Below, piece after piece: positions 862-16,070 of a stretch of 64,000 bases of DNA; the first letter of the stretch is position 1, and the number at the start of each line of letters is the position of its first letter. A program made the translations under genes and the position numbers. The DNA comes from Streptomyces bungoensis (lineage in GTDB: Bacteria > Actinomycetota > Actinomycetes > Streptomycetales > Streptomycetaceae). Location: contig NZ_KQ948859.1 in the NCBI RefSeq assembly GCF_001514215.1, positions 130,165 to 194,164 of the forward strand, in the 5' to 3' direction. Under the pieces are notes generated by a model. The model saw only the letters and a program-made list of their open reading frames with translations, was not told the DNA's origin and searched no databases.

Positions 862-1791
862 ATGCCGCAGACCGAGACACCGGGCACCGAGGTGATCCCG
901 CGCATCCGTCTGCGGTGGTGGACCGAGCTGCCGCTCATCCTGCTGATCTACGCCTGCTACACGGCCGGCCGCCTCGTCGCGCGCGGGGACGTCTCGGGTG
1001 CCGTCGACCACGGCCTGGCCCTCCTGCGCATCGAGCAGGTGCTGCACCTCAACGCCGAGCAGCCGCTCAACCGGCTGTTCACGCGCGAGCCGTGGCTCGG
1101 CGTGCCGGCCGACTTCTGGTACGCCTCGCTGCACTACGTGGTCACGCCGGCGGTCCTCGTCTGGCTGTTCCGGACCCGCGCCGAGCTGTACCGCGCGGCG
1201 CGCACCTGGCTGATGACCTCCACGTTCATCGGCCTGATCGGTTTCATCCTGCTGCCCACCTGCCCGCCCCGGCTGCTGTCCGGGGAGCACGGCTTCGTGG
1301 ACACGATGGCCCACTACAGCTCGTACGGCTGGTGGGGCGCCGAGGCCAGCGCGCCGCGCGGCATGGGCGGCATGACCAACCAGTACGCGGCCATGCCGAG
1401 CCTGCACGTGGGCTGGGCGCTGTGGTGCGGGCTCATGCTGTGGCGGTACGGCGGCACCCGGCTGACGAAGGTGCTCGGCGTGGCCTACCCGCTGCTGACC
1501 GCGCTGGTGGTCATGGGCACCGCCAACCACTACCTGCTGGACGCGGTCGCGGGCGTCGCCACGATGGGCGTGGGCCTGCTGCTCGCGCCGTGGGTGACGC
1601 GCGGTTCGGACCTGCTCCGGGCCCGGATCGCCTCCCGGGACACGGCCGTTCCCGCGTTCCCGCCGGCCGCGGGTTCCCCGATTGTCAGTGGCGGATGCCA
1701 GACTTCCGCGGGTGAGCGAATTCCACGGCAGCGCGAGTCGCAGCTCGCGTCCGCAGCCGGACCGGACGCCTCCGCCGCGGACGCGGACTGA
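862..1791 (+). CDS. PAP2-superfamily membrane phosphatase / IPC-synthase-like protein
   Basis: A 309-residue integral membrane protein with about six hydrophobic segments (first near residues 20-38). The PAP2_3 motifs are present: [11 protein letters not shown] with the proton-donor His, and [12 protein letters not shown] with the nucleophile His and Asp. The family removes or transfers lipid-linked phosphate groups at the outer membrane face, for example inositol-phosphate or phosphatidate-type lipids; the lipid here is unknown. ATG 862 follows GGGGGAGGG. The 3' end overlaps the start of the nuclease gene by roughly 80 nt, so the two may be co-transcribed. Confidence 0.88.
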
Positions 1792-2914
1792 GGGGCTCCG
1801 GCAGCGGCTCGCTGAGCTGCGCGGCCCGGACGTACCGGCCAAGGCCCTGGACGCGCGCGCCCTCGCGGCGCTCGCCGCCAACCCCGGGTGCCGCAGACGG
1901 GCGATCCTGGACGGCGCCGGGGTGGACAAGGCGGCGCTCGCGAGCGCGCTGGGCGCGCCGTCCGGTTTCGGCCAGTCGCAGTTCGCGCTGACCCGCGGCA
2001 ACGCGTTCGAGGCGAAGGTGAAGGCGGACGGCGGCGCGGAGCTGCTGCGGCTGGTCCACGCCCGGCTCGACCCGGGTGCCGAGCCGCCCGCCGGGGCCGC
2101 GCTGCCCGACCTGTCCGCGCTCGGCCCCGAGGGGCGTACGGCGCGCACGGCGCTGGCGCTGCGCGAGGCGGTGGACGCGGGCGGCTGGACGCTGCTGGAC
2201 CACCCGATGCTGGCGCTGGACGTGGCGGGCTCCGTCGCGTTCCTGGAACCGGACGCGGTCGTGGTGCACCCGGACGGCAGCTGGACGGTCGTGGAGATCA
2301 AGTCCTTCCCGATGCTGGACGGCTCGGCCGACCCGGCGAAGGTGGGCGCGGCCGCCCGGCAGGCGGCGGTGTACGTGCTGGCCCTGGAGTCCGTGGCCGC
2401 CCGGCTCGACCCCGCCCCGCGGGTGCGGCACCGGGTGCTGCTGGTGTGCCCGAAGGACTTCTCCAACCTGCCCACCGCCTCCGCCGTGGACGTCCGCAAG
2501 CAGCGCGCGGTCACCGCCCGCCAGCTGGCCCGGCTCACCCGTGTGGAGGAGATCGCCGGCAGCCTCCCGGAGGGCACCTGCTTCGCCCCGGACCGGCCGG
2601 CCGAGGAGCTGACGGCGGCCGTGGAGGCGGTCCCGGCGACCTACGCGCCGGAGTGCCTGTCCGCCTGCGAACTGGCCTTCCACTGCCGGGAACGCTCCCG
2701 GGAGGCCGGCGCCGTCACCCGCCTCGGCCGCCCCCTGCGCGCCGAGCTCGGCGGCCTGACCACGGTCGAGGAGGTCCTCGCGGCGGCCCGCGGCGAGGCC
2801 GGCGACCCCGCCGACCCGGCCGTCGCGGCCCTGCGCCGCGCGGCCGCACTGCGCGCGGAGGCCCTGCGCGCGGCCGGGCACCCCGCCGCCGCGGAGGTGG
2901 CCGCGTGTCGCTGA
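1712..2914 (+). CDS. RecB/Cas4-like PD-(D/E)XK nuclease with four-Cys Fe-S signature
   Basis: A protein of about 400 residues. Counting from GTG 1712, the RecB-type nuclease core is visible: Asp181 in FLEPDAVVV, the ExK pair Glu195/Lys197 in VVEIKSF, and QxxxY at 217-221. Cys60 and the C-terminal cluster Cys315-x3-Cys319-x5-Cys325 match the split four-Cys iron-sulphur arrangement known from AddB and Cas4. The expected activity is DNA end or single-strand cleavage. The start is uncertain: TTG 1682 and GTG 1688 are in frame and none has a strong ribosome site. It overlaps the next gene by 10 nt and forms an operon with it and the helicase. TM0106-type proteins fuse such a nuclease to a helicase; here they are separate. 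Confidence 0.75.
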
Positions 2915-4503
2915 TCGTCACCCTGGCCCGGCTCGAGGCCGTCGCCACCGGCCGGGCCCGGCCCATCGCGACCGTCCGCCACCGGCACCTGTCGCAGCGC
3001 CCGCTGGTGTTCGTGCCGCTCACCACCGCCGGTGAGGCGGGCGCCCCGCTCGGCGCGCTGGTGGGCACCGACCGGGACGCGCCGCGCCTGCTGGTGGTGC
3101 CGCAGCCCCGCGACCGGGACCTCAGGTTCGCGTTCCTCGCCGAACTGGCCGACGTCGTCCTGCCGTACCTGGACTCCTGCGCGGAGTCGGTCGAGGCGGC
3201 CGAGCGCACCGAGACCGACCCGGAGACCGGCAAGCGCGTCAAGGTCGAGGTCGAGCTGTGCACGGACGCGCCCCAGCTGATCGTGCCCAGCCGCGCGGGC
3301 CTGGACCTCGTCCGGCTGCTCGGCCGCTCCATGCGCTTTCGCCGCACCGCCGAGCAGGACCCGGACACCCCCTACCCGGCGCCGCCGCGGGTGCCGCTGC
3401 TCGGCCGCTGGCTCACCCACTACGGCGAGCGGGCCCGCGTGCCCGGCTCGTCCCTGCTGCTGGCGCTCACCGAGGTGCTGTCCCGGCACTGGGCGACCGG
3501 CCAGTCCGGCCTGGAGGACCAGCACCTGGGCGCCCTGCTCGCCTGGATCGATCCGCCGGAGGGCAGCACCGGCGCCGAGGCCGCCGAGCGGGCCGAGCTC
3601 GCCCGTGACGCCGACGGCCAGTTGCTGTGCCCGCCGGCCGGCCCGGCCACCGACCCGGCGTTCGACAACAGGCTGCTGGCCCCCGCCATCGAGCGCTACG
3701 ACCGGGCGCGCACCGCCCTCGCCGCCGCCGAGGACGCCCTGGAGGCCGACGACCGGCTGGCCCGGCTCAGCGCCGCCGAGCGGGAGATCCGCGATCTGGT
3801 GGAGAGCCGCACCCGGCCCACCTGGGACGCGGTCTGGCGGGGCCTGGACCTGCTGCGGACGCTCCCGGAGGGCGCGCACGTCGAGGAGCGGTGGACCCGG
3901 GACCGCTGGTCGTTCACCGGGCACCGCGACCGGGTGCTGGCCGGCGAGCCGCCGCAGCCGCGCCGGGACGACGCGGTGACGGCGGCGAACAAGCTGGCCA
4001 CGCGCGAGCGCGAGCAGGCGCGCCTGGAGGCGCAGGAGGCGCTGGACGACCCGCTGGTGATGGCCGGGCGGCGGCTGGCCGGAGAGGCGTTCGCGGGCGA
4101 GGTCACCGATGCCGTCATGGCGTACGGCGAGGGCAGGCGGCCCAGCCCGCGCCCGCTGGTGACGGTCCGCACGGAGGACCGGCCGCACCTGGCGGAGCGC
4201 GCGAAGGTGTACCGCTCGCTGGGCGGCAGGCCGCAGGCGGCGGAGTTCGCCGGGTACGAGGGCGCCCCGGAGGAGGGCCTGCTCGTGCTGCGGATCCTGG
4301 ACAAGATGGGCCGGGGCAGGGAGCCGGAGCCCGGGTCGGTGCCGGAGAAGGGCGACGCGGTCTGCTTCACCCTCTTCGAGCACGAGCAGCGCGGCGGCGC
4401 GAAGCTGCCCGACCCGGAGGAGACCCCGTGGACGCACGGCGGCCCGCCGGGCGAGGCCGCGCCGGAGGCGCCCGACGCCGTGACCGAGGAGGACGTGCTG
4501 TGA
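2905..4503 (+). CDS. Unrecognised 532-aa protein between nuclease and helicase
   Basis: I do not recognise this protein. It starts at GTG 2905 with GGAGG at 2893-2897 inside the end of the nuclease gene, and its stop overlaps the helicase GTG by 3 nt, so translation of all three is probably coupled. It has no signal peptide or membrane segment. Two charged, helix-prone stretches (roughly residues 265-305 and 350-385) could form coiled coils. The C-terminal third is compact, followed by an acidic Pro-rich tail. No Walker, nuclease or zinc motif is visible. Position suggests a third subunit of a nuclease-helicase complex; this is inference. Confidence 0.8.
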   Translation: MSLIVTLARLEAVATGRARPIATVRHRHLSQRPLVFVPLTTAGEAGAPLGALVGTDRDAPRLLVVPQPRDRDLRFAFLAELADVVLPYLDSCAESVEAAERTETDPETGKRVKVEVELCTDAPQLIVPSRAGLDLVRLLGRSMRFRRTAEQDPDTPYPAPPRVPLLGRWLTHYGERARVPGSSLLLALTEVLSRHWATGQSGLEDQHLGALLAWIDPPEGSTGAEAAERAELARDADGQLLCPPAGPATDPAFDNRLLAPAIERYDRARTALAAAEDALEADDRLARLSAAEREIRDLVESRTRPTWDAVWRGLDLLRTLPEGAHVEERWTRDRWSFTGHRDRVLAGEPPQPRRDDAVTAANKLATREREQARLEAQEALDDPLVMAGRRLAGEAFAGEVTDAVMAYGEGRRPSPRPLVTVRTEDRPHLAERAKVYRSLGGRPQAAEFAGYEGAPEEGLLVLRILDKMGRGREPEPGSVPEKGDAVCFTLFEHEQRGGAKLPDPEETPWTHGGPPGEAAPEAPDAVTEEDVL

Positions 4504-5837
4504 CGACCGCCGGCTTCGACCCGGGGGCGGCGGCCGCCCGTGCGACGGACGCGATCCTGCGCGACACGCTGCACGGCACGCACCGCGGTGTCGTCGTGGA
4601 CTCCCCGCCCGGGGCGGGCAAGTCGACGCTCGTGGTCCGCGCGGCGCTGGAGCTGGCCGGTGCCGGACGGCCCCTGATGGTGGTCGCGCAGACCAACGCG
4701 CAGGTCGACGACCTGGTCCTGCGGCTCGCCGAGAAGGCCCCGGACCTGCCCGTCGGCCGGCTGCACAGCAGCGACGCCGACGCCTACGACAAGGCGCTGG
4801 ACGCGCTGGACAACGTGCGCACGTCGGCGAAGGCGGGCGACCTGAACGGGCTGCCGGTGGTGCTGTCCACCGCCGCGAAGTGGGCCCACGTCAAGGCGGA
4901 CGAGCCGTGGCGGCACGCGATCGTCGACGAGGCGTACCAGATGCGCTCGGACGCGCTCCTGGCGGTGGCCGGCCTGTTCGAGCGGGCGCTGTTCGTGGGC
5001 GACCCGGGCCAGCTGGACCCGTTCGCGATCGTGGGCAGCGAGCAGTGGGCGGGCCTGACGTACGACCCGTCGGCGTCGGCGGTGACGACGCTGCTGGCGC
5101 ACAACCCGGACCTGCCCCAGCACCGCCTCCCGGTGTCCTGGCGCCTGCCCGCCACGGCGGCTCCCCTGGTCTCGGACGCCTTCTACCCGTACACCCCGTT
5201 CCGCAGCGGCACGGACCACGACGACCGCCGCCTGACCTTCGCGGTCCCCTCCGACGGCTCCGGCCCGGACCGGGTGATCGACGAGGCGGCGGCGTCCGGC
5301 TGGGGTCTGCTGGAGCTGCCGGCCCGGCACACCCCGCGCACCGACCCGGAGGCGGTGCGGGCGGTCGCGGCCGTCGTACGCCGTCTGCTGGACCGGTCGG
5401 GCGCGGCGGTCTCCGAGCGGGCGCCGGAGCCCGCGCCGCTGACCGCGGGCCGCATCGCCGTGGGCACGGCCCACCGGGACCAGGCGGCGGCCGTCCGCGC
5501 CGCCCTGGCCGAACGCGGCGTGACGGACGTCACCGTGGACACCGCGAACCGGCTCCAGGGCCGCGAGTACGACGTCACGGTGGTCCTGCACCCACTGTCC
5601 GGGCGCCCCGACGCCACCGCCTTCCACCTGGAGACCGGCCGCCTGTGCGTCCTGGCCTCCCGCCACCGCCACGCCTGCATCGTCGTCTGCCGGGCGGGCG
5701 TCGGCGACCTCCTGGACGACTACCCGTCCACCGAACCGGTCCAGCTGGGGACCCTGGTGAAGTTCCCGGACGGGTGGGAGGCGAACCACGCGATCCTCGC
5801 CCACCTGGCCCAGCACCGGGTCGGCTGGCAGCCGTGA
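4500..5837 (+). CDS. SF1-type DNA/RNA helicase (AAA ATPase)
   Basis: A 445-residue superfamily 1 helicase. Walker A SPPGAGKST lies at 35-43, the DE pair of motif II at 143-144 (IVDEAYQ), motif III GDPGQLDP at 167-174, and the C-terminal RecA-fold motifs around VDTANRLQGREYD and VLASRHRH. It is shorter than UvrD or RecB and resembles the helicase half of Dna2/TM0106-like nuclease-helicases. Start GTG 4500 overlaps the preceding stop and follows GAGGAGGA. It probably unwinds DNA for the nuclease encoded two genes upstream. The cellular role (repair, R-loop processing or defence) is not shown by the sequence. Confidence 0.85.
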   Translation: MTTAGFDPGAAAARATDAILRDTLHGTHRGVVVDSPPGAGKSTLVVRAALELAGAGRPLMVVAQTNAQVDDLVLRLAEKAPDLPVGRLHSSDADAYDKALDALDNVRTSAKAGDLNGLPVVLSTAAKWAHVKADEPWRHAIVDEAYQMRSDALLAVAGLFERALFVGDPGQLDPFAIVGSEQWAGLTYDPSASAVTTLLAHNPDLPQHRLPVSWRLPATAAPLVSDAFYPYTPFRSGTDHDDRRLTFAVPSDGSGPDRVIDEAAASGWGLLELPARHTPRTDPEAVRAVAAVVRRLLDRSGAAVSERAPEPAPLTAGRIAVGTAHRDQAAAVRAALAERGVTDVTVDTANRLQGREYDVTVVLHPLSGRPDATAFHLETGRLCVLASRHRHACIVVCRAGVGDLLDDYPSTEPVQLGTLVKFPDGWEANHAILAHLAQHRVGWQP

Positions 5838-5956: not shown

Positions 5957-6328
5957 ATGGCGGAGCCCACGCCGCGTCGGAACGAACCGCGGCTACGCCC
6001 CGCGCCCCTGCTCTTCGAGCCGGCGGAGGCGGCCGCCGATCCCGAGCACTTCTTCGACCTGGAGTCGATCGACGATCCCCGGGCGCTGCTGACCCGGGCG
6101 ACGGAGCTGACCCAGGCGTTCCGCGCGGCCGCCGACCGGGCCGTGGAGTTCCAGGCCATCGCGGCGGCCCAGCTCGCCGACCCGCGCAGGTTCGACCGGC
6201 TGACCGCGGCGGACATCGCCGAGCGGGCGGAATGGACGGAGGACTACGCGAAGAAGATGGTGGAGTTCGGGCGGGACCTGATGCGCGGGGCCGACACGGA
6301 GGGCCGGACGCCCGTCGACCCGGTGTAG
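5957..6328 (+). CDS. Small protein with helix-turn-helix-like C-terminal half
   Basis: A 123-residue soluble protein from ATG 5957 after a GGAGGAGATGGAGAC ribosome site. The N-terminal third is Pro/Glu/Arg-rich. The C-terminal half contains LTAADIAERAEWTEDYAKKM, which reads like a helix-turn-helix as in small DNA-binding regulators. It lies 119 nt after the helicase on the same strand, so it could be the last gene of that operon or have its own promoter. The family is not recognised and its function is unknown. Confidence 0.75.
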   Translation: MAEPTPRRNEPRLRPAPLLFEPAEAAADPEHFFDLESIDDPRALLTRATELTQAFRAAADRAVEFQAIAAAQLADPRRFDRLTAADIAERAEWTEDYAKKMVEFGRDLMRGADTEGRTPVDPV

Positions 6329-10672: not shown

Positions 10673-11739
10673 GCGTCCGCGACGAGTTCGTAGGAGCGCA
10701 GCCGCAGCTCGCCGCGGTGGGCGTGCGTGGTGAGCAGCAGCTCGTCGGCGCCGGTGCGCTTGTGCAGGTCGTCCAGGCCGGAGCGGACCTCGTCCGGCGT
10801 GCCGTGCACGACGTTGCCGGTGATGGAGGCGGCGAGTTCCTCCTCCATCGGGCTGAAGGCGTACGCCTCGGCCTCCTCCGGCGACGGGAACAGGCCGTGG
10901 CGGCCGGTGCGCAGCCGGATCATGCTCAGCGCGACGGCCCGCACCTGGCGCCGCGCCTCCCGCTCCTCGTCGGTGGCGAGGGCGGAGACACCGATGACGG
11001 TGTACGGCTCGTCCAGCACCGCGGAGGGGCGGAAGCTCTCCCGGTACAGGTCCAGGGCGGGGATGGTGTTCTGCGCGGAGAAGTGGTGCGCGAAGGCGAA
11101 GGGCAGCCCGAGCAGGCCGGCCAGGCGGGCGCTGAAGCCGGAGGAGCCGAGCAGCCAGACCGGTGGCCGGTGCGGGGACTGGACGCCGCCGGGGGCGCTG
11201 CTCTGCACCGGGCCGGGGATGGCGTGGATGCGGCGGTAGCGGTGGCCGTCGGGGAAGTCGTCGTCCAGGAAGCGGGTGAGTTCGGCCAGCTGCTCCGGGA
11301 AGTCGTCGGCGCCCTCGGTCAGCGCGTCGGTGCGGCGCAGGGCGGCGGCCGTCGCCCCGTCCGTGCCCGGCGCCCGGCCGAGCCCGAGGTCGATCCGGCC
11401 CGGCGCCAGCGCCTCCAGCGTGCCGAACTGCTCCGCGATCACCAGCGGGGCGTGGTTGGGCAGCATGACGCCGCCCGAGCCGAGCCGGATGCGGTCGGTG
11501 TGGGCGGCGAGGTGGGCGAGGATCACGGCGGGCGAGGAGGAGGCGACGCCGGGCATGGAGTGGTGCTCGGCGACCCAGTACCGGTGGAAGCCGCGGGCCT
11601 CCGCCAGCCGGGCCAGCCGGACGCCGGTGCGCAGCGCGTCGGTGGCGGTGCTGCCCGCGCCCACGATCGCCAGGTCCAGCACGGAGAGGGGGACGGGGGC
11701 ACTGCCGTGTGCCGTACCCCGTATCTCGTCTGCCGCCAC
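10651..11739 (-). CDS. LLM-class flavin-dependent oxidoreductase
   Basis: A 362-residue bacterial-luciferase-like TIM-barrel protein. It shows the subfamily features [74 protein letters not shown] and [14 protein letters not shown], typical of the group that uses flavin to oxidise unknown small molecules. GTG 11739 is preceded by GGAGG. It lies 120 nt after the racemase-fold gene on the same strand and converges with cdgA, overlapping it by 22 nt. The substrate is unknown. Confidence 0.88.
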
Positions 11740-11859
11740 GGTGTCTGCCTCCTGCCTCTGCCACGGAACACGTGCCCCGGGCTCAACAGGAGACAGTCTC
11801 CGCTTATTCCCTGGAGCCCCGCTCGACCGTGGCTGGACTCCGCGGGCGCCGCGGCGGGG

Positions 11860-12597
11860 CTACGCCTGCATCAGCGGCTCCCGGGTGAACAGGGCGCCCA
11901 GTGTCGGGGCGTTGACGCGCCGGTCGGCCAGCCGGAGCCCTTCCCGGACCGACACCTGGCAGGCCGTGAGCACCGGCTTGGACAGCGTCTTCTCCAGCAG
12001 GGGCAGGCAGGCGGCGGTGTGCAGCGCGGTGTCCGGCAGCAGCACCGCCTGCGCCCCGGAGCCGGGGGCGTCGGCGGCGCGGGCCAGCGTCAGCACCTCC
12101 TCCTCGCCCCAGCCGGCGGCCTCCGCCGCGGTGGCGGTCCCGGACGACCGCAGCGACACCACCTCGAGTCCGCCGGCCCGCAGGAAGTCGCCGAACAGCG
12201 CGGCCACGCTCTCGGGGTAGGCCGTCCCCACGGCGACCCGGCGCACGCCCAGCTCCCGGGCGGCGTTGACGAAGCCGAAGGACGTCGACGAGGCCGGCAT
12301 CCCCGCCAGCCGGGCCAGCGCCCGCACCTGCTCCTGCGCGCCCTCCCAGCCGTGCACGAAGCCGCCGCTGGTGCTGGCCCACACCACCGTCTCGGCGCCG
12401 GTCAGCCGCAGCCCCTCCATGCCCGCGGCGAGCCGCTCGGGCGCGCCGAGCTCGCGCAGCGCGTCGACCCGGTGCGTGTCCTCACCGATGTCGGTGTGCA
12501 CCAGGTCCATCCGGATGTCGCTGCCCAGGAGCTGCTCGATGCGCCGATAGTCGTCCTCGGCGGAGTGGCCCGGATAGAGGAATCCGAGTGCAGTCAT
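11860..12597 (-). CDS. Maleate isomerase / Asp-Glu racemase-fold protein lacking both catalytic cysteines
   Basis: A 245-residue protein of the maleate cis-trans isomerase/arylmalonate decarboxylase superfamily. The N-terminal start GFLYPGHSAEDDY and the loop VVWASTSGGFVHGWEG mark the family, and the second active-site loop is LLPDTALHTAACLP. Both positions where racemases and isomerases carry the catalytic Cys are Ser or Thr-like here, so the chemistry may differ (decarboxylase or hydrolase-like). ATG 12597 follows GGGAAAGG. It may share an operon with the LLM oxidoreductase. Confidence 0.75.
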   Translation of the reverse strand: MTALGFLYPGHSAEDDYRRIEQLLGSDIRMDLVHTDIGEDTHRVDALRELGAPERLAAGMEGLRLTGAETVVWASTSGGFVHGWEGAQEQVRALARLAGMPASSTSFGFVNAARELGVRRVAVGTAYPESVAALFGDFLRAGGLEVVSLRSSGTATAAEAAGWGEEEVLTLARAADAPGSGAQAVLLPDTALHTAACLPLLEKTLSKPVLTACQVSVREGLRLADRRVNAPTLGALFTREPLMQA

Positions 12598-12760
12598 GTC
12601 GGCCTTTCCCTAGGTTCCGGTGTCCTGCGGTCCGGGTACCCAGCCGGCGCGGCACCGCTCCCCCCGTGACCCGGTCGGCCGAGAGGCCCGTGTTGACGCA
12701 CGGGGGTCGGGGTGCAAGCGTGGTCGCGCCGCGCACGCCGGACGCCCGGAGCCGCCCCGT

Positions 12761-13714
12761 ATGACGCCGACCACGCCCACCCTCCTCGTGCTGGACGCCG
12801 ATCCCCCGCCCCGGCTGGGCCGGCTCACCGGGCGGGCCCGGATCGTGCACACGGACGCGGCCGGGCTGGCCGGGCGGCTGCCCGCGGCGGACGTGCTGCT
12901 GGTGTGGGACTTCACCTCGCACGCCGTGCGCGAGGCCTGGCCGGGGGGCGGGCCCCGGCCGCGCTGGGTGCACACGGCGAGTGCGGGCGTGGACCACCTG
13001 ATGTGCCCGGAGCTCGCCGCGTCGGACACGGTGGTGACCAACGCGCGCGGGATCTTCGACCAGCCGATCGCCGAGTACGTGGCCGCCCTGGTGCTGGCGG
13101 TCGCCAAGGACCTGCCGCGCACGCTGGAGCACCAGCGGGAGCGGGTGTGGCGGCACCGGGAGACCCGGCGGGTGGCGGGCACGCGCGCGTGCGTGGTCGG
13201 CTCCGGGCCGATCGGCCGGGCGATCGCCCGCACGCTGAGGGCGCTGGACGTGACGACGGCCCTGGTCGGCCGGGTGCCGCGGACCGGCGTGCACGGCCCG
13301 GGCGACCTGGACCGGCTGATCTCCCGCGCCGACTGGGTGATCGCCGCGGCCCCGCTGACCGAGCAGACGTACGGCATGTTCGACGCCCGCCGGTTCGGCG
13401 TGATGCAGCCCTCGGCGGTCTTCGTGAACGTCGGCCGCGGGCAGCTGGTCGACGAGGAGGCCCTCGCCGGAGCGCTGGCCGGACGCTGGATCGCGGGCGC
13501 CGCCCTGGACGTGTTCGCCGCCGAGCCCCTCCCCGCGGGCAGCCCGCTGTGGGACCTGCCCGGGCTGATCGTCTCCCCGCACATGAGCGGCGACACGGTC
13601 GGCTGGCGCGACGAACTGGGCGCGCAGTTCGTCGAGTTGTACGAGCGGTGGGCGGCGGGCAGGCCGCTGGTGAACGTCGTCGACAAGCAGCGCGGATACG
13701 TGCCCGGCCACTGA
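12761..13714 (+). CDS. D-isomer-specific 2-hydroxyacid dehydrogenase
   Basis: A 317-residue NAD(P)-dependent dehydrogenase. The Rossmann motif VVGSGPIGRAIARTL lies near residues 146-160. Catalytic residues are visible in NVGRGQLVDEEAL (Arg), DVFAAEPLP (Glu) and SPHMSGDT (His), as in D-2-hydroxyacid dehydrogenases that interconvert 2-oxo and D-2-hydroxy acids. ATG 12761 is chosen because upstream codons have no ribosome site; the longer frame from 12620 is unlikely. The gene diverges from the racemase-fold gene. Confidence 0.88.
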   Translation: MTPTTPTLLVLDADPPPRLGRLTGRARIVHTDAAGLAGRLPAADVLLVWDFTSHAVREAWPGGGPRPRWVHTASAGVDHLMCPELAASDTVVTNARGIFDQPIAEYVAALVLAVAKDLPRTLEHQRERVWRHRETRRVAGTRACVVGSGPIGRAIARTLRALDVTTALVGRVPRTGVHGPGDLDRLISRADWVIAAAPLTEQTYGMFDARRFGVMQPSAVFVNVGRGQLVDEEALAGALAGRWIAGAALDVFAAEPLPAGSPLWDLPGLIVSPHMSGDTVGWRDELGAQFVELYERWAAGRPLVNVVDKQRGYVPGH

Positions 13715-13780
13715 GCGGCCGGCCGGCCGCCGCGGAGAACGGGGCGCATAGCCTGCCTACGCTTGGGTAGCTGCGCCGCC

Positions 13781-14707
13781 ATGGCTGCACCACTTGGGAA
13801 CGACGGACAGACTTTCCGGCCGGAACGCAGGCACAGCAGACGCGCGGTCCTCTCGGGCGCCGCCGTGCTGGGCGCGGTGGGCGCGCTGGGTGCGGCGGGC
13901 TGCACGCGCGTGGCCTCGGCGTCGGACGAGCCCGGCGGCGACCTGCTCGACCGGCTGCGCGCCCAGGGGGTCGTACGGCTCGGGATCGCCGGCGAGATCC
14001 CCTTCGGCTACATCGACCGGGACGGGCATCTCACCGGTGAGGCCCCCGAGCTGGCGAAGGTGATCTTCAAGCGGCTCGGCGTGGACCGGGTGCAGCCGGT
14101 GCCGACCGAGTTCGGCTCGCTCATTCCCGGGCTGAACTCCCAGCAGTTCGACGTCGTGGCCGCCGGGATGTACGTGAACCCCGAGCGCTGCGCGCAGGTG
14201 ATCTTCGCCGATCCCGACTACCAGATGCTGGATTCGTTCATCGTCCGCAAGGGGAACCCGAAGGGGTTGCACTCCTACCGCGACGTGGTGGAGAAGAAGG
14301 CGAAGTTCGCCACCGGCACCGGGTACGCGGAGATCCAGTACGCCGTGGAGGCCGGGTACGCGGAGGGCGACATCCTGATCGTCCCGGACCAGGTGGCCGG
14401 GCTGAACGCCGTGGAGGCCGGGCGGGTCGACGTCTTCGCCGGTACGGCGCTCACCACCCGCGCGGTGGTGCGGAAGTCGGCCAAGGCGGAGGCCACCAGG
14501 CCGTTCGCGCCGCTGGTGAAGGGCAAACCGCACGTGGACGGCGGCGCGTTCGCGTTCCGGCCGTCCGAGACGAAGCTGCGGGACGCCTTCAACACCGAGC
14601 TGCGCAAGCTGAAGAAGAGCGGGGAGCTGTTCCGGATCCTCAGGCCCTTCGGCTTCACCAAGGCCGAGATGACGGACCTCACCGCGAAGGAGCTGTGCGG
14701 CGGATGA
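13781..14707 (+). CDS. ehuB: Ectoine/hydroxyectoine-type ABC substrate-binding lipoprotein EhuB
   Basis: A 308-residue solute-binding protein. The N-terminus SRRAVLSGAAVLG followed by lipobox LGAAGC predicts Tat-dependent export and lipid anchoring. The mature part is a family 3 amino-acid-type binding protein; LTGEAPELAKVIFKRLG and QFDVVAAGMYVNPERCAQV match the EhuB subfamily that binds the osmolytes ectoine and hydroxyectoine. Its stop overlaps the permease start (ATGA), opening a four-gene importer operon. TTG 13763 is an alternative start. Confidence 0.82.
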   Translation: MAAPLGNDGQTFRPERRHSRRAVLSGAAVLGAVGALGAAGCTRVASASDEPGGDLLDRLRAQGVVRLGIAGEIPFGYIDRDGHLTGEAPELAKVIFKRLGVDRVQPVPTEFGSLIPGLNSQQFDVVAAGMYVNPERCAQVIFADPDYQMLDSFIVRKGNPKGLHSYRDVVEKKAKFATGTGYAEIQYAVEAGYAEGDILIVPDQVAGLNAVEAGRVDVFAGTALTTRAVVRKSAKAEATRPFAPLVKGKPHVDGGAFAFRPSETKLRDAFNTELRKLKKSGELFRILRPFGFTKAEMTDLTAKELCGG

Positions 14708-15423
14708 CCTCGGGGCTCTGGGAACTGGTACTGAAAGGCGTCTGGACGACCGTCCAGCTGCTCGTGTTCAGCGCGCTGCTGGCCACGGCGGTGTCCTTCG
14801 CCGTCGGCATCGCGCGCACCCACCGGCTGTGGATCGTGCGCTTCCTGGCCGGCTTCTACACCGAGGTGTTCCGGGGCACCTCGGCGCTGGTGATGATCTT
14901 CTGGGTGTTCTTCGTGCTGCCGGTCGCGTTCGGCTGGCAGCTGGTGCCGATGTGGGCGGGCACGCTCGCGCTCGGGCTGACGTACGGCGCGTACGGCTCG
15001 GAGATCGTGCGCGGCGCGCTGAACGCGGTGGACCCGGCGCAGAAGGAGGGCGGGATCGCGCTCAGCCTCACGCCGGGCCAGCGGATGCGGCTGATCGTGC
15101 TGCCCCAGGCGGTGCCGGAGATGATCCCGTCCTTCTGCAACCTGCTGATCGAGCTGCTCAAGGGCACCGCGCTGGTGTCCGTCATGGGCATGGGCGACCT
15201 GACGTTCAGCGCCAACCTGGTGCGCCTCGCCCTGCAGCAGAGCGCGGAGATCTACACGTACGTGCTGCTGATCTACTTCGCGATCGCCTTCGTGCTGACC
15301 CGGCTGATGCGCGGCCTGGAGAAGCGGCTGAAGGCCGGGGTCGGCAAGGACGCCGGGACGCAGCCGGCGGCGCGTGAGCTGAAGCGGGCGCAGACGACCG
15401 GTGTGGGCGGAGGTGCGGCATGA
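14704..15423 (+). CDS. ehuC: ABC transporter permease EhuC
   Basis: A 239-residue inner-membrane permease of the HisM/amino-acid type, with about five membrane segments and the EAA loop NAVDPAQKEGGIALSLTPGQRMRLIVLPQAVPE. It forms half of the membrane channel with EhuD. ATG 14704 overlaps the ehuB stop; its own stop overlaps the ehuD start. The Arg-rich cytoplasmic tail (HGDAGTQPAARELKRAQ-like) is typical of actinobacterial members. Confidence 0.87.
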   Translation: MTSGLWELVLKGVWTTVQLLVFSALLATAVSFAVGIARTHRLWIVRFLAGFYTEVFRGTSALVMIFWVFFVLPVAFGWQLVPMWAGTLALGLTYGAYGSEIVRGALNAVDPAQKEGGIALSLTPGQRMRLIVLPQAVPEMIPSFCNLLIELLKGTALVSVMGMGDLTFSANLVRLALQQSAEIYTYVLLIYFAIAFVLTRLMRGLEKRLKAGVGKDAGTQPAARELKRAQTTGVGGGAA

Positions 15424-16070
15424 CCTGGGACTGGAACGCCGTCGGTGACTTCATGCCGTACTTCCGGCAGGGGTTGCTGGTCACGCTGCAGGTGCTGGCC
15501 CTCGGCTCGCTGCTGTCCTTCACCCTCGGCCTGGTGTGGACGCTGCTGATGCCCGTGCCGAGCCGGTGGGTGCGCTGGCCGGTCGGGGTGGTCACGGAGT
15601 TCGTGCGCGACACCCCGCTGCTGGTGCAGCTGTTCTTCCTGTTCTACGTGCTGCCGGAGTGGGGCCTGACCTTCTCGGCGCCGGCCACCGGCGTGTTCGC
15701 GATCGGCCTGCACTACTCGACGTACACCATGCAGGTCTACCGGGCCGGCATCGAGGCGGTGCCGGCCGGCCAGTGGGAGGCGGCGACCGCGCTGAACCTG
15801 CCGCGGCGGCGGACCTGGACCGCGGTGATCCTGCCGCAGGCGATCCGCCGGGTGGTCCCCGCCCTCGGCAACTACGTGATCTCCATGCTGAAGGACACGC
15901 CGCTGCTGATGGTGATCACCGTGCTGGAGATGCTCGGGCGGGCCCGGCTCTTCTCCCAGCAGCACTTCCAGTTCACCGAGCCGCTCACCGTGATCGGTGT
16001 GGCCTTCATCCTCATCTCCTACCTGGCCTCCCTTCTCCTGCGAGCCCTGGAGCGACGTCTTGTCCGCTGA
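15420..16070 (+). CDS. ehuD: ABC transporter permease EhuD
   Basis: A 216-residue second permease subunit. EAA-loop sequence GIEAVPAGQWEAATALNLPRRRTW is followed by ILPQAIRRVVPALGN, the site where the ATPase docks. ATG 15420 overlaps the ehuC stop by 4 nt, and the ehuA TTG lies inside its 3' end. It partners EhuC and EhuA in osmolyte uptake. Confidence 0.87.
   Translation: MTWDWNAVGDFMPYFRQGLLVTLQVLALGSLLSFTLGLVWTLLMPVPSRWVRWPVGVVTEFVRDTPLLVQLFFLFYVLPEWGLTFSAPATGVFAIGLHYSTYTMQVYRAGIEAVPAGQWEAATALNLPRRRTWTAVILPQAIRRVVPALGNYVISMLKDTPLLMVITVLEMLGRARLFSQQHFQFTEPLTVIGVAFILISYLASLLLRALERRLVR

Follow-up and report, generated by a model that had tools for sequence, protein, structure and literature searches.

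A proposed split helicase-nuclease of three overlapping genes

Based on our findings, we propose that three adjoining genes of Streptomyces bungoensis, here called NUC, MID and HEL, probably encode the three subunits of one ATP-driven bacterial DNA2-like helicase-nuclease; both the complex and the roles of its parts are what we infer. The genes lie in the window that we analysed, 64,000 nucleotides (nt) of contig NZ_KQ948859.1 (positions 130,165 to 194,164) from a genome of 8.4 Mb, and all are on the plus strand with overlapping ends, 10 nt being common to NUC and MID and 4 nt (GTGA) to MID and HEL. An earlier reading of the letters alone (the sequence-only reading) had noted overlapping start and stop codons across the three genes, a RecB-type nuclease with a split four-cysteine cluster, a 532-residue protein without recognisable domain and a superfamily 1 (SF1) helicase; the measured overlaps, the cysteines and motifs conserved in our alignments and the Pfam matches of HEL uphold the overlaps, the nuclease and the helicase. 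The features, in window positions, are as follows.

1712..2914, plus strand: NUC, RecB-type PD-(D/E)XK nuclease with a four-cysteine (iron-sulphur, Fe-S) signature, 400 amino acids from GTG
1889..1891, plus strand: NUC C60, first cysteine of the split cluster (C in 48/49 rows, the remaining row a gap)
2252..2302, plus strand: NUC D181...E195-I-K197 active-site motifs (D in 48/49, E in 46/49 and K in 47/49 rows)
2654..2686, plus strand: NUC C315-x3-C319-x5-C325, the other three cysteines (invariant, 49/49 rows)
2905..4503, plus strand: MID, 532-residue protein of no known family
2995..3609, plus strand: MID 31-235 (our delimitation), putative RNase H/DnaQ-like domain, probably without catalytic acids (VIA-align, alignment)
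3967..4389, plus strand: MID 355-495, predicted helices and beta barrel like the stalk/1B of Upf1-like SF1B helicases (VIA-align)
4500..5837, plus strand: HEL, SF1B (Dna2/IGHMBP2-like) helicase core, 445 amino acids, without stalk/1B
4602..4625, plus strand: HEL Walker A (SPPGAGKS), conserved in alignments
4926..4937, plus strand: HEL motif II (DEAY), conserved in alignments

Third-position GC in the three genes is 0.96-0.98, as in real genes. In three pairwise comparisons of the window with relatives, the ratio of nonsynonymous to synonymous substitution rates (dN/dS) was 0.21-0.23 for NUC, 0.19-0.25 for MID and 0.10-0.14 for HEL; all three are under purifying selection. We place the start of NUC at the GTG at 1712, a TTG at 1682 being an alternative possibility.

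HEL matches Pfam AAA_11 and AAA_12. Its profile finds IGHMBP2 (3.3e-17) and DNA2 (2.3e-15) in the PDB, with a partial match to entry 9KWF, and aligns to the TM0106 helicase at an hhalign probability of 99.1, so that the kinship with Dna2 and TM0106 parts that had been claimed for these genes is borne out for the helicase. The best stretch of the match begins at residue 639 of DNA2 and residue 203 of IGHMBP2, points which lie past the stalk and 1B domain, and HEL itself begins about 32 residues ahead of its Walker A motif. Judged by these alignments, HEL is without the stalk/1B region that precedes the motor in related helicases.

The missing part seems to appear at the end of MID, one gene upstream, and for this reason we propose a split Dna2-like enzyme. 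The AlphaFold2 model of MID is confident (mean predicted local distance difference test, pLDDT, 90.6; predicted template modelling score, pTM, 0.88), and we ran VIA-align on the candidates that Foldseek gave for it. Residues 355-495 superpose on IGHMBP2 10-142 (Z 8.8, 111 aligned, 4.6 Å) and on the N-terminal stalk/barrel of Senataxin (Z 8.8, 113 aligned, 6.7 Å) and of Sen1 (Z 8.2, 88 aligned, 2.9 Å), which suggests that the C-terminus of MID is a stalk and barrel like those preceding the IGHMBP2/Senataxin motor. For residues 31 to about 380 (range 31-382), the best likeness was to the exonuclease region of archaeal family B polymerase (Z 9.3, 172 aligned, 3.4 Å). As we read the model, the order of strands and helices in this N-terminal part fits the RNase H/DnaQ fold, suggesting an RNase H-like domain; it is probably catalytically dead, since strand 34-40 has no conserved acid.

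Could MID nevertheless be a catalytic enzyme itself, for instance a nuclease of the RNase H-like kind that relies on unusual acids, or one whose new activity centres on other conserved acids? We think this very unlikely. Acids do stand at positions 231, 254, 355 and 382 in 28/28 rows, remote relatives included, and at position 44 in 96% of rows. However, the GQS-x-x-ED block of the main MID group is lost in three remote loci (L228, L248 and L249) and only partly retained in a fourth (L247), D355 and D382 fall in or beside the helices modelled as stalk, and the DxE place of strand 1 holds no acid pair.

Searches of Pfam, PADLOC and NCBIfam at E <= 1 gave no match for the window's MID, a PDB search with its profile none at E <= 10, and a viral fold library nothing at E <= 0.001; 62 relatives gave scattered weak Pfam matches (best E 0.0046). 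These results support MID as an undescribed protein family, and the profile search and structure prediction that had been suggested for it brought up no well-known unrelated enzyme. The view that MID is a new subunit without recognisable domain thus stands as to known families, but the model points to an RNase H-like domain and a stalk/1B barrel, and because of these parts MID looks less like an added subunit than like the central portion of a Dna2-like protein that has a gene to itself.

In NUC, D181, E195-x-K197 and Q217-xxx-Y221 are conserved in alignments of 49 and 25 rows. Y221, C315, C319 and C325 occur in every row of both, and C60 in 48/49 and 24/25, the exception being a late-starting row with a gap there. 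(Rows were dropped from the alignments on grounds of length and redundancy, and one locus, L049, was omitted from the rows used for folding.) Pfam PDDEXK_1 matches relatives of NUC weakly (best E 0.0014), 6/23 in one set and 4/25 in another. We rejected the PDB matches of the NUC profile, which were designed repeat proteins and chance matches.

We suggest a plausible mechanism from the order nuclease, middle part, motor of the three overlapping genes. HEL would be a two-RecA-domain SF1B motor, and the C-terminus of MID, next to HEL, would supply the stalk and 1B barrel on which a motor of this type depends. The N-terminal RNase H-like domain of MID, probably without catalytic acids, could serve as a scaffold or DNA-binding surface, and NUC would be an Fe-S RecB nuclease to which single-stranded DNA is fed for cutting. 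The complex would probably process DNA 5' ends, flaps or double-strand ends; such a helicase-nuclease may act on ends, flaps or gaps.

Comparison with single-chain enzymes

With NUC first, then MID and HEL, the genes stand in the sequence in which bacterial DNA2-like proteins carry their domains. The paper on Bad, the DNA2-like protein of Geobacillus, describes an Fe-S four-cysteine nuclease, an SF1B motor and, at the centre, a domain to which nothing known is related (PMC7430649). It describes this central domain, which Dna2 lacks, as completely unknown in bacterial DNA2-like proteins, and places the Bad gene beside a DNA methyltransferase gene, with a possible link to DNA modification (PMC7430649). 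The likeness to our operon lies in the Fe-S four-cysteine RecB nuclease, the central domain of unknown function and the SF1B motor; the difference is that Bad is one polypeptide and the operon three genes, MID and the Bad central domain being likened by position. Among the traits of DNA2-like enzymes, RecB motifs with four cysteines across the domain are found in NUC and an SF1B motor of the Dna2/Upf1 group in HEL. The stalk/1B N-terminal to the motor is absent from HEL and resembled by the C-terminus of MID (Z 8.8 and 8.2, not above other barrels), and nuclease and motor lie on separate genes, not on one polypeptide. The operon seems to work like bacterial DNA2-like enzymes but falls outside a definition that asks for a single chain.

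The TM0106 family (TIGR03491) combines a RecB part, an RNase H-like part and a helicase in one chain. Its helicase is clearly related to HEL, its parts are in the same order, and its four cysteines and D...DxK...QxxxY motifs recall NUC. It differs in being a single chain and in having, in 8/8 rows, a DxE pair after the nuclease that is not seen in MID. Neither NUC nor MID matched TIGR03491 in NCBIfam at E <= 1; the only TIGR03491 match in the S. bungoensis genome (19.8 bits) lies elsewhere than the operon, and one other genome (G149) holds both a TM0106 protein and the operon. Eukaryotic Dna2 ranks among the top matches to HEL in the PDB, but it is without the middle part and is not split, whereas the operon is split in three; a resection role for the latter is conjectural. 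With AddAB and Cas4 the operon shares, by motif, the four-cysteine iron-staple type of nuclease. AddAB has a UvrD/AddA-type motor, whereas the operon is without one (UvrD-helicase match of HEL, E 0.19, under the cut-off), and NUC gave no match in PADLOC at E <= 1, Cas4 included.

Several results weigh against a DNA2-like helicase-nuclease. The NUC profile gave no significant match to TM0106 proteins and the MID profile no homology to them; the cysteine spacing of NUC is CX3CX5C, versus CX2CX5C in 8 TM0106 proteins; and NUC is without a family match of its own, none being found in NCBIfam at E <= 1. Foldseek with the MID model returned nothing at E <= 0.001 (best 0.0083), and Z of 8-9 for MID is modest, little above the level that unrelated models reach. 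Flavin-reductase/ferredoxin-reductase barrels score like 1B barrels against its C-terminal part. Near the RNase H-like domain, E44 (just past strand 34-40), E231 and D254 are conserved, so the loss of catalysis is not certain. Finally, we saw no natural fusion of NUC, MID and HEL in loci where genes were called; a MID-HEL fusion in one genome (G010, L048) was a frameshift with an unsequenced gap nearby and was discarded. Kinship with DNA2-like proteins is thus firm for HEL only, NUC and MID being tied to them by motif, order and fold, not by profile.

Conservation of the operon and its neighbours

MID occurs in 99/101 Streptomyces genomes and HEL (E <= 1e-60) in 197/200 Streptomycetaceae genomes and 17/17 genera sampled; in G037 and G050 (82% complete), the two Streptomyces genomes without a MID match, HEL was not matched either. 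We call this family-wide form, with the window's locus, the core copy, and suggest that it has a housekeeping role because it is near-universal. Outside the family the distribution is patchy: MID was found in 15/396 genomes of the phylum and NUC in 15/396, with 14 genomes in common. The MID count includes a weak match (G304, E 9e-4) that we distrust, local profiles finding no NUC, MID or HEL there among open reading frames of >= 120 amino acids, and the NUC-only genome (G346) does contain a diverged MID and HEL.

NUC-MID-HEL is tight in 37/38 core loci (35 genomes, three with two loci), the exception, L039, having a 548-bp gap between NUC and MID. The same holds for 10/10 second copies, 3/3 plasmid-collection records, 8/8 loci of other families of the class and 76/80 loci found by scanning for F4, a gene described below, the other 4 running off the contig end inside the operon. 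In a remote order, NUC was found in 5/198 genomes, and all 5 loci (L228 and L247-L250, read with all open reading frames) have NUC-MID-HEL. The junctions that could be read there are 4-nt gene overlaps; MID is only 17-26% identical (four rows aligned) and in L250 is broken in two, and the MID protein of L228 reaches a score of 207, where 100 shuffles gave at most 75. The kept order and adjacency across the phylum, together with close co-occurrence, bear out the earlier suggestion that the three genes form one functional unit, and the count of adjacency that had been called for proved strict.

The nuclease, the factor of unknown function and the helicase could instead be co-transcribed members of one pathway that form no stable complex, an explanation to which we give little credence. 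The genes are separate wherever they were called, and in one family (f6), where NUC-MID is kept in 11/11 loci, HEL is not next in 10 (in the remaining locus, L081, the contig ends there) and yet is retained, 9-49 kb away or on another contig, in 10/10 genomes searched. A stable complex is nevertheless favoured by the lack in HEL of the stalk/1B of its relatives while MID ends in a similar fold, and by the 4-nt overlaps retained even in remote-order loci whose MID is only 17-20% identical.

A phage origin was considered and rejected: phage records gave no match, and of 21 pattern matches in viral contigs none was confirmed.

On either side of the operon in the window lie a PAP2 gene and a small gene.

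862-1791, plus strand: upstream neighbour, PAP2 gene, whose 3' end overlaps the NUC start

The NUC start lies inside the PAP2 3' end (window 1682-1791), and the gene calls of several further core loci show a similar overlap, so that PAP2 may be co-transcribed with the NUC-MID-HEL operon. The dN/dS of PAP2 in the same three comparisons, 0.35-0.47, is above that of NUC, MID and HEL. Just 3' of HEL, at 5957-6328, is a gene for a 123-residue protein with no Pfam match at E <= 1; relatives of it occur in 9/24 clustered loci, the window included.

An F4-bearing sister clade and its defence setting

A second copy of the operon occurs in 9/101 Streptomyces genomes, and exactly those nine carry directly upstream of it a further gene, F4, for a mostly helical protein of about 280 amino acids (model pLDDT 77). 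F4 gave no PADLOC match at E <= 0.001, and 32 relatives gave scattered weak Pfam matches (best 0.0011) and no convincing family. Its fold matches by Foldseek and VIA-align (no Z >= 8), nearly all to residues 1-60, were set aside as generic helical hairpins, for example the UvrB C-terminus. We scanned a species-genome collection with F4 and studied the best 80 of 339 relatives, a choice that favours close relatives of the query; three of these loci (L099-L101) come from one assembly. One remote-order genome (G783) also has F4.

The neighbours of these copies suggest a defence setting. SbcD was found in 50/80 F4-scan loci and Wadjet-type genes in 23/80 (tblastn), with a JetC2-type protein in two further loci (L091 and L096); in the proteins tested, PADLOC confirms Wadjet type I (JetA1, JetB1, JetC1, JetD1) and type II (JetA2, JetB2, JetC2). 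SbcCD stands beside the cassette in two arrangements on separate tree branches: upstream and divergent in one, downstream and in the same direction in the other. The F4-NUC-MID-HEL cassette of L068 has directly beside it a full pPIWI-RE set (PDDEXK, RE, DinG, PIWI; L185 238-9432) by PADLOC profiles, and the neighbours in L031 and L032 match this set by BLAST and position; a published proposal is that pPIWI-RE restricts invading DNA (PMC3702460). Next to HEL in the second copy of G036 (L186 2235-11317) we observed a SNF2-type helicase (PADLOC C3a139, DrmD) together with a restriction enzyme of type III (REase_III), another defence setting. Some copies lie near replicon ends: second-type copies about 21 kb from both chromosome ends in G049, a copy within 7 kb of one chromosome end in G093, and one about 13 kb from a linear-plasmid end. 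Other sister copies are internal, for example in G009. The two MID copies of G049 (L029 and G049:C1:10654195-10655655) score equally on a one-contig chromosome of 10.7 Mb, as expected of terminal inverted repeats. Enrichment of Wadjet at Streptomyces chromosome ends has already been published (PMC10482375). The sequence-only reading had found nothing mobile next to the operon; this holds for the window copy but not for the sister copies, which are found on plasmids, close to the ends of chromosomes and next to SbcCD, Wadjet and pPIWI-RE.

Two further loci deserve mention. Downstream of an F4-NUC-MID-HEL cassette with SbcCD, L106 encodes at 11291-15790 a 1499-residue protein with no Pfam match at E <= 0.01. 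A contig labelled Candidatus Melainabacteria (L116) holds F4, NUC and the MID start, 57-75% identical to the actinobacterial queries, which reflects either a binning error or a transfer.

A tree of 67 MID rows, made by a quick method and carrying flags on several long branches, groups the core copies in one clade (Shimodaira-Hasegawa-like approximate likelihood ratio test, 100), which is nested among F4-bearing rows without SbcCD, those around it being from Streptosporangiaceae and Thermomonosporaceae. From this nesting we infer that the core copy's ancestor lost F4, and the F4 state needs at least three changes on the tree. Eukaryotic Dna2 works with Mre11-Rad50, and the sister copies often adjoin SbcCD, the bacterial Mre11-Rad50. 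The F4 sister clade, often with SbcCD and Wadjet or pPIWI-RE, would probably degrade or resect the DNA ends that these make, and the mobile sister copies would thus take a degradative part in defence islands. It counts against this proposal that SbcD was found neither in 30/80 F4-scan loci nor beside the core copy. Some NUC copies, moreover, have replaced active-site residues.

L031 4875-5990: NUC copy with replaced active-site residues
L068 8020-9135: NUC copy with replaced active-site residues
L160 10741-11811: NUC copy with replaced active-site residues

In the pPIWI-RE-linked copies L031, L032 and L068 the alignment has L/R in place of E195/K197, and NUC is probably inactive there, which disfavours a degradative role of those copies. 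In L160, E195 is replaced by A, resembling inactivated nucleases retained in an operon.

Instead of serving in housekeeping repair, the core copy might itself defend the cell against phages or plasmids, although we consider this unlikely. It arose within F4-bearing lineages, its sister clade has SbcCD, pPIWI-RE, Wadjet of types I and II and a type III restriction enzyme for neighbours, and the gene of DNA2-like Bad adjoins a type III-like methyltransferase (PMC7430649). However, presence in 99/101 genomes of the genus and 197/200 of the family is unlike patchy defence systems, the same ordinary neighbours recur in most gene-called core loci, dN/dS is low, and no SbcD or Wadjet gene was found in 38 core loci (28 of them with only about 1.5 kb on each side). 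Among the known anti-phage systems of PADLOC-DB 2.0.0, NUC and MID have no match and HEL has only partial helicase-core matches, best to MkoA (1.2e-8). Membership in the PLuB system (NF040671) was rejected: HEL reaches 62.9 bits against a curated cut-off of 999, a generic helicase-core similarity, and partial matches in 33/149 genomes include 0 over the cut-off.

Returning to the housekeeping helicase-nuclease, a wider scheme is conceivable, which we put forward as possible rather than probable. The operon may be a counterpart of resection by Mre11-Rad50 and Dna2. Its mobile four-gene form with its own SbcCD would destroy DNA cut by Wadjet or pPIWI-RE, and the Streptomycetaceae form, tamed by the loss of F4, would carry out near-universal housekeeping end processing, perhaps of the protein-capped ends of linear chromosomes.

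We found no paper on the NUC-MID-HEL operon in the literature searched, which covers few subscription papers, and a DNA-processing machine of nearly every Streptomyces therefore seems to be without name or function in print. A separate MID with a confident model makes the central part of DNA2-like enzymes testable by leaving the subunit out. The recurrent link of the sister copies to SbcCD and Wadjet suggests, moreover, a route by which DNA that defence systems have cut may be broken down.

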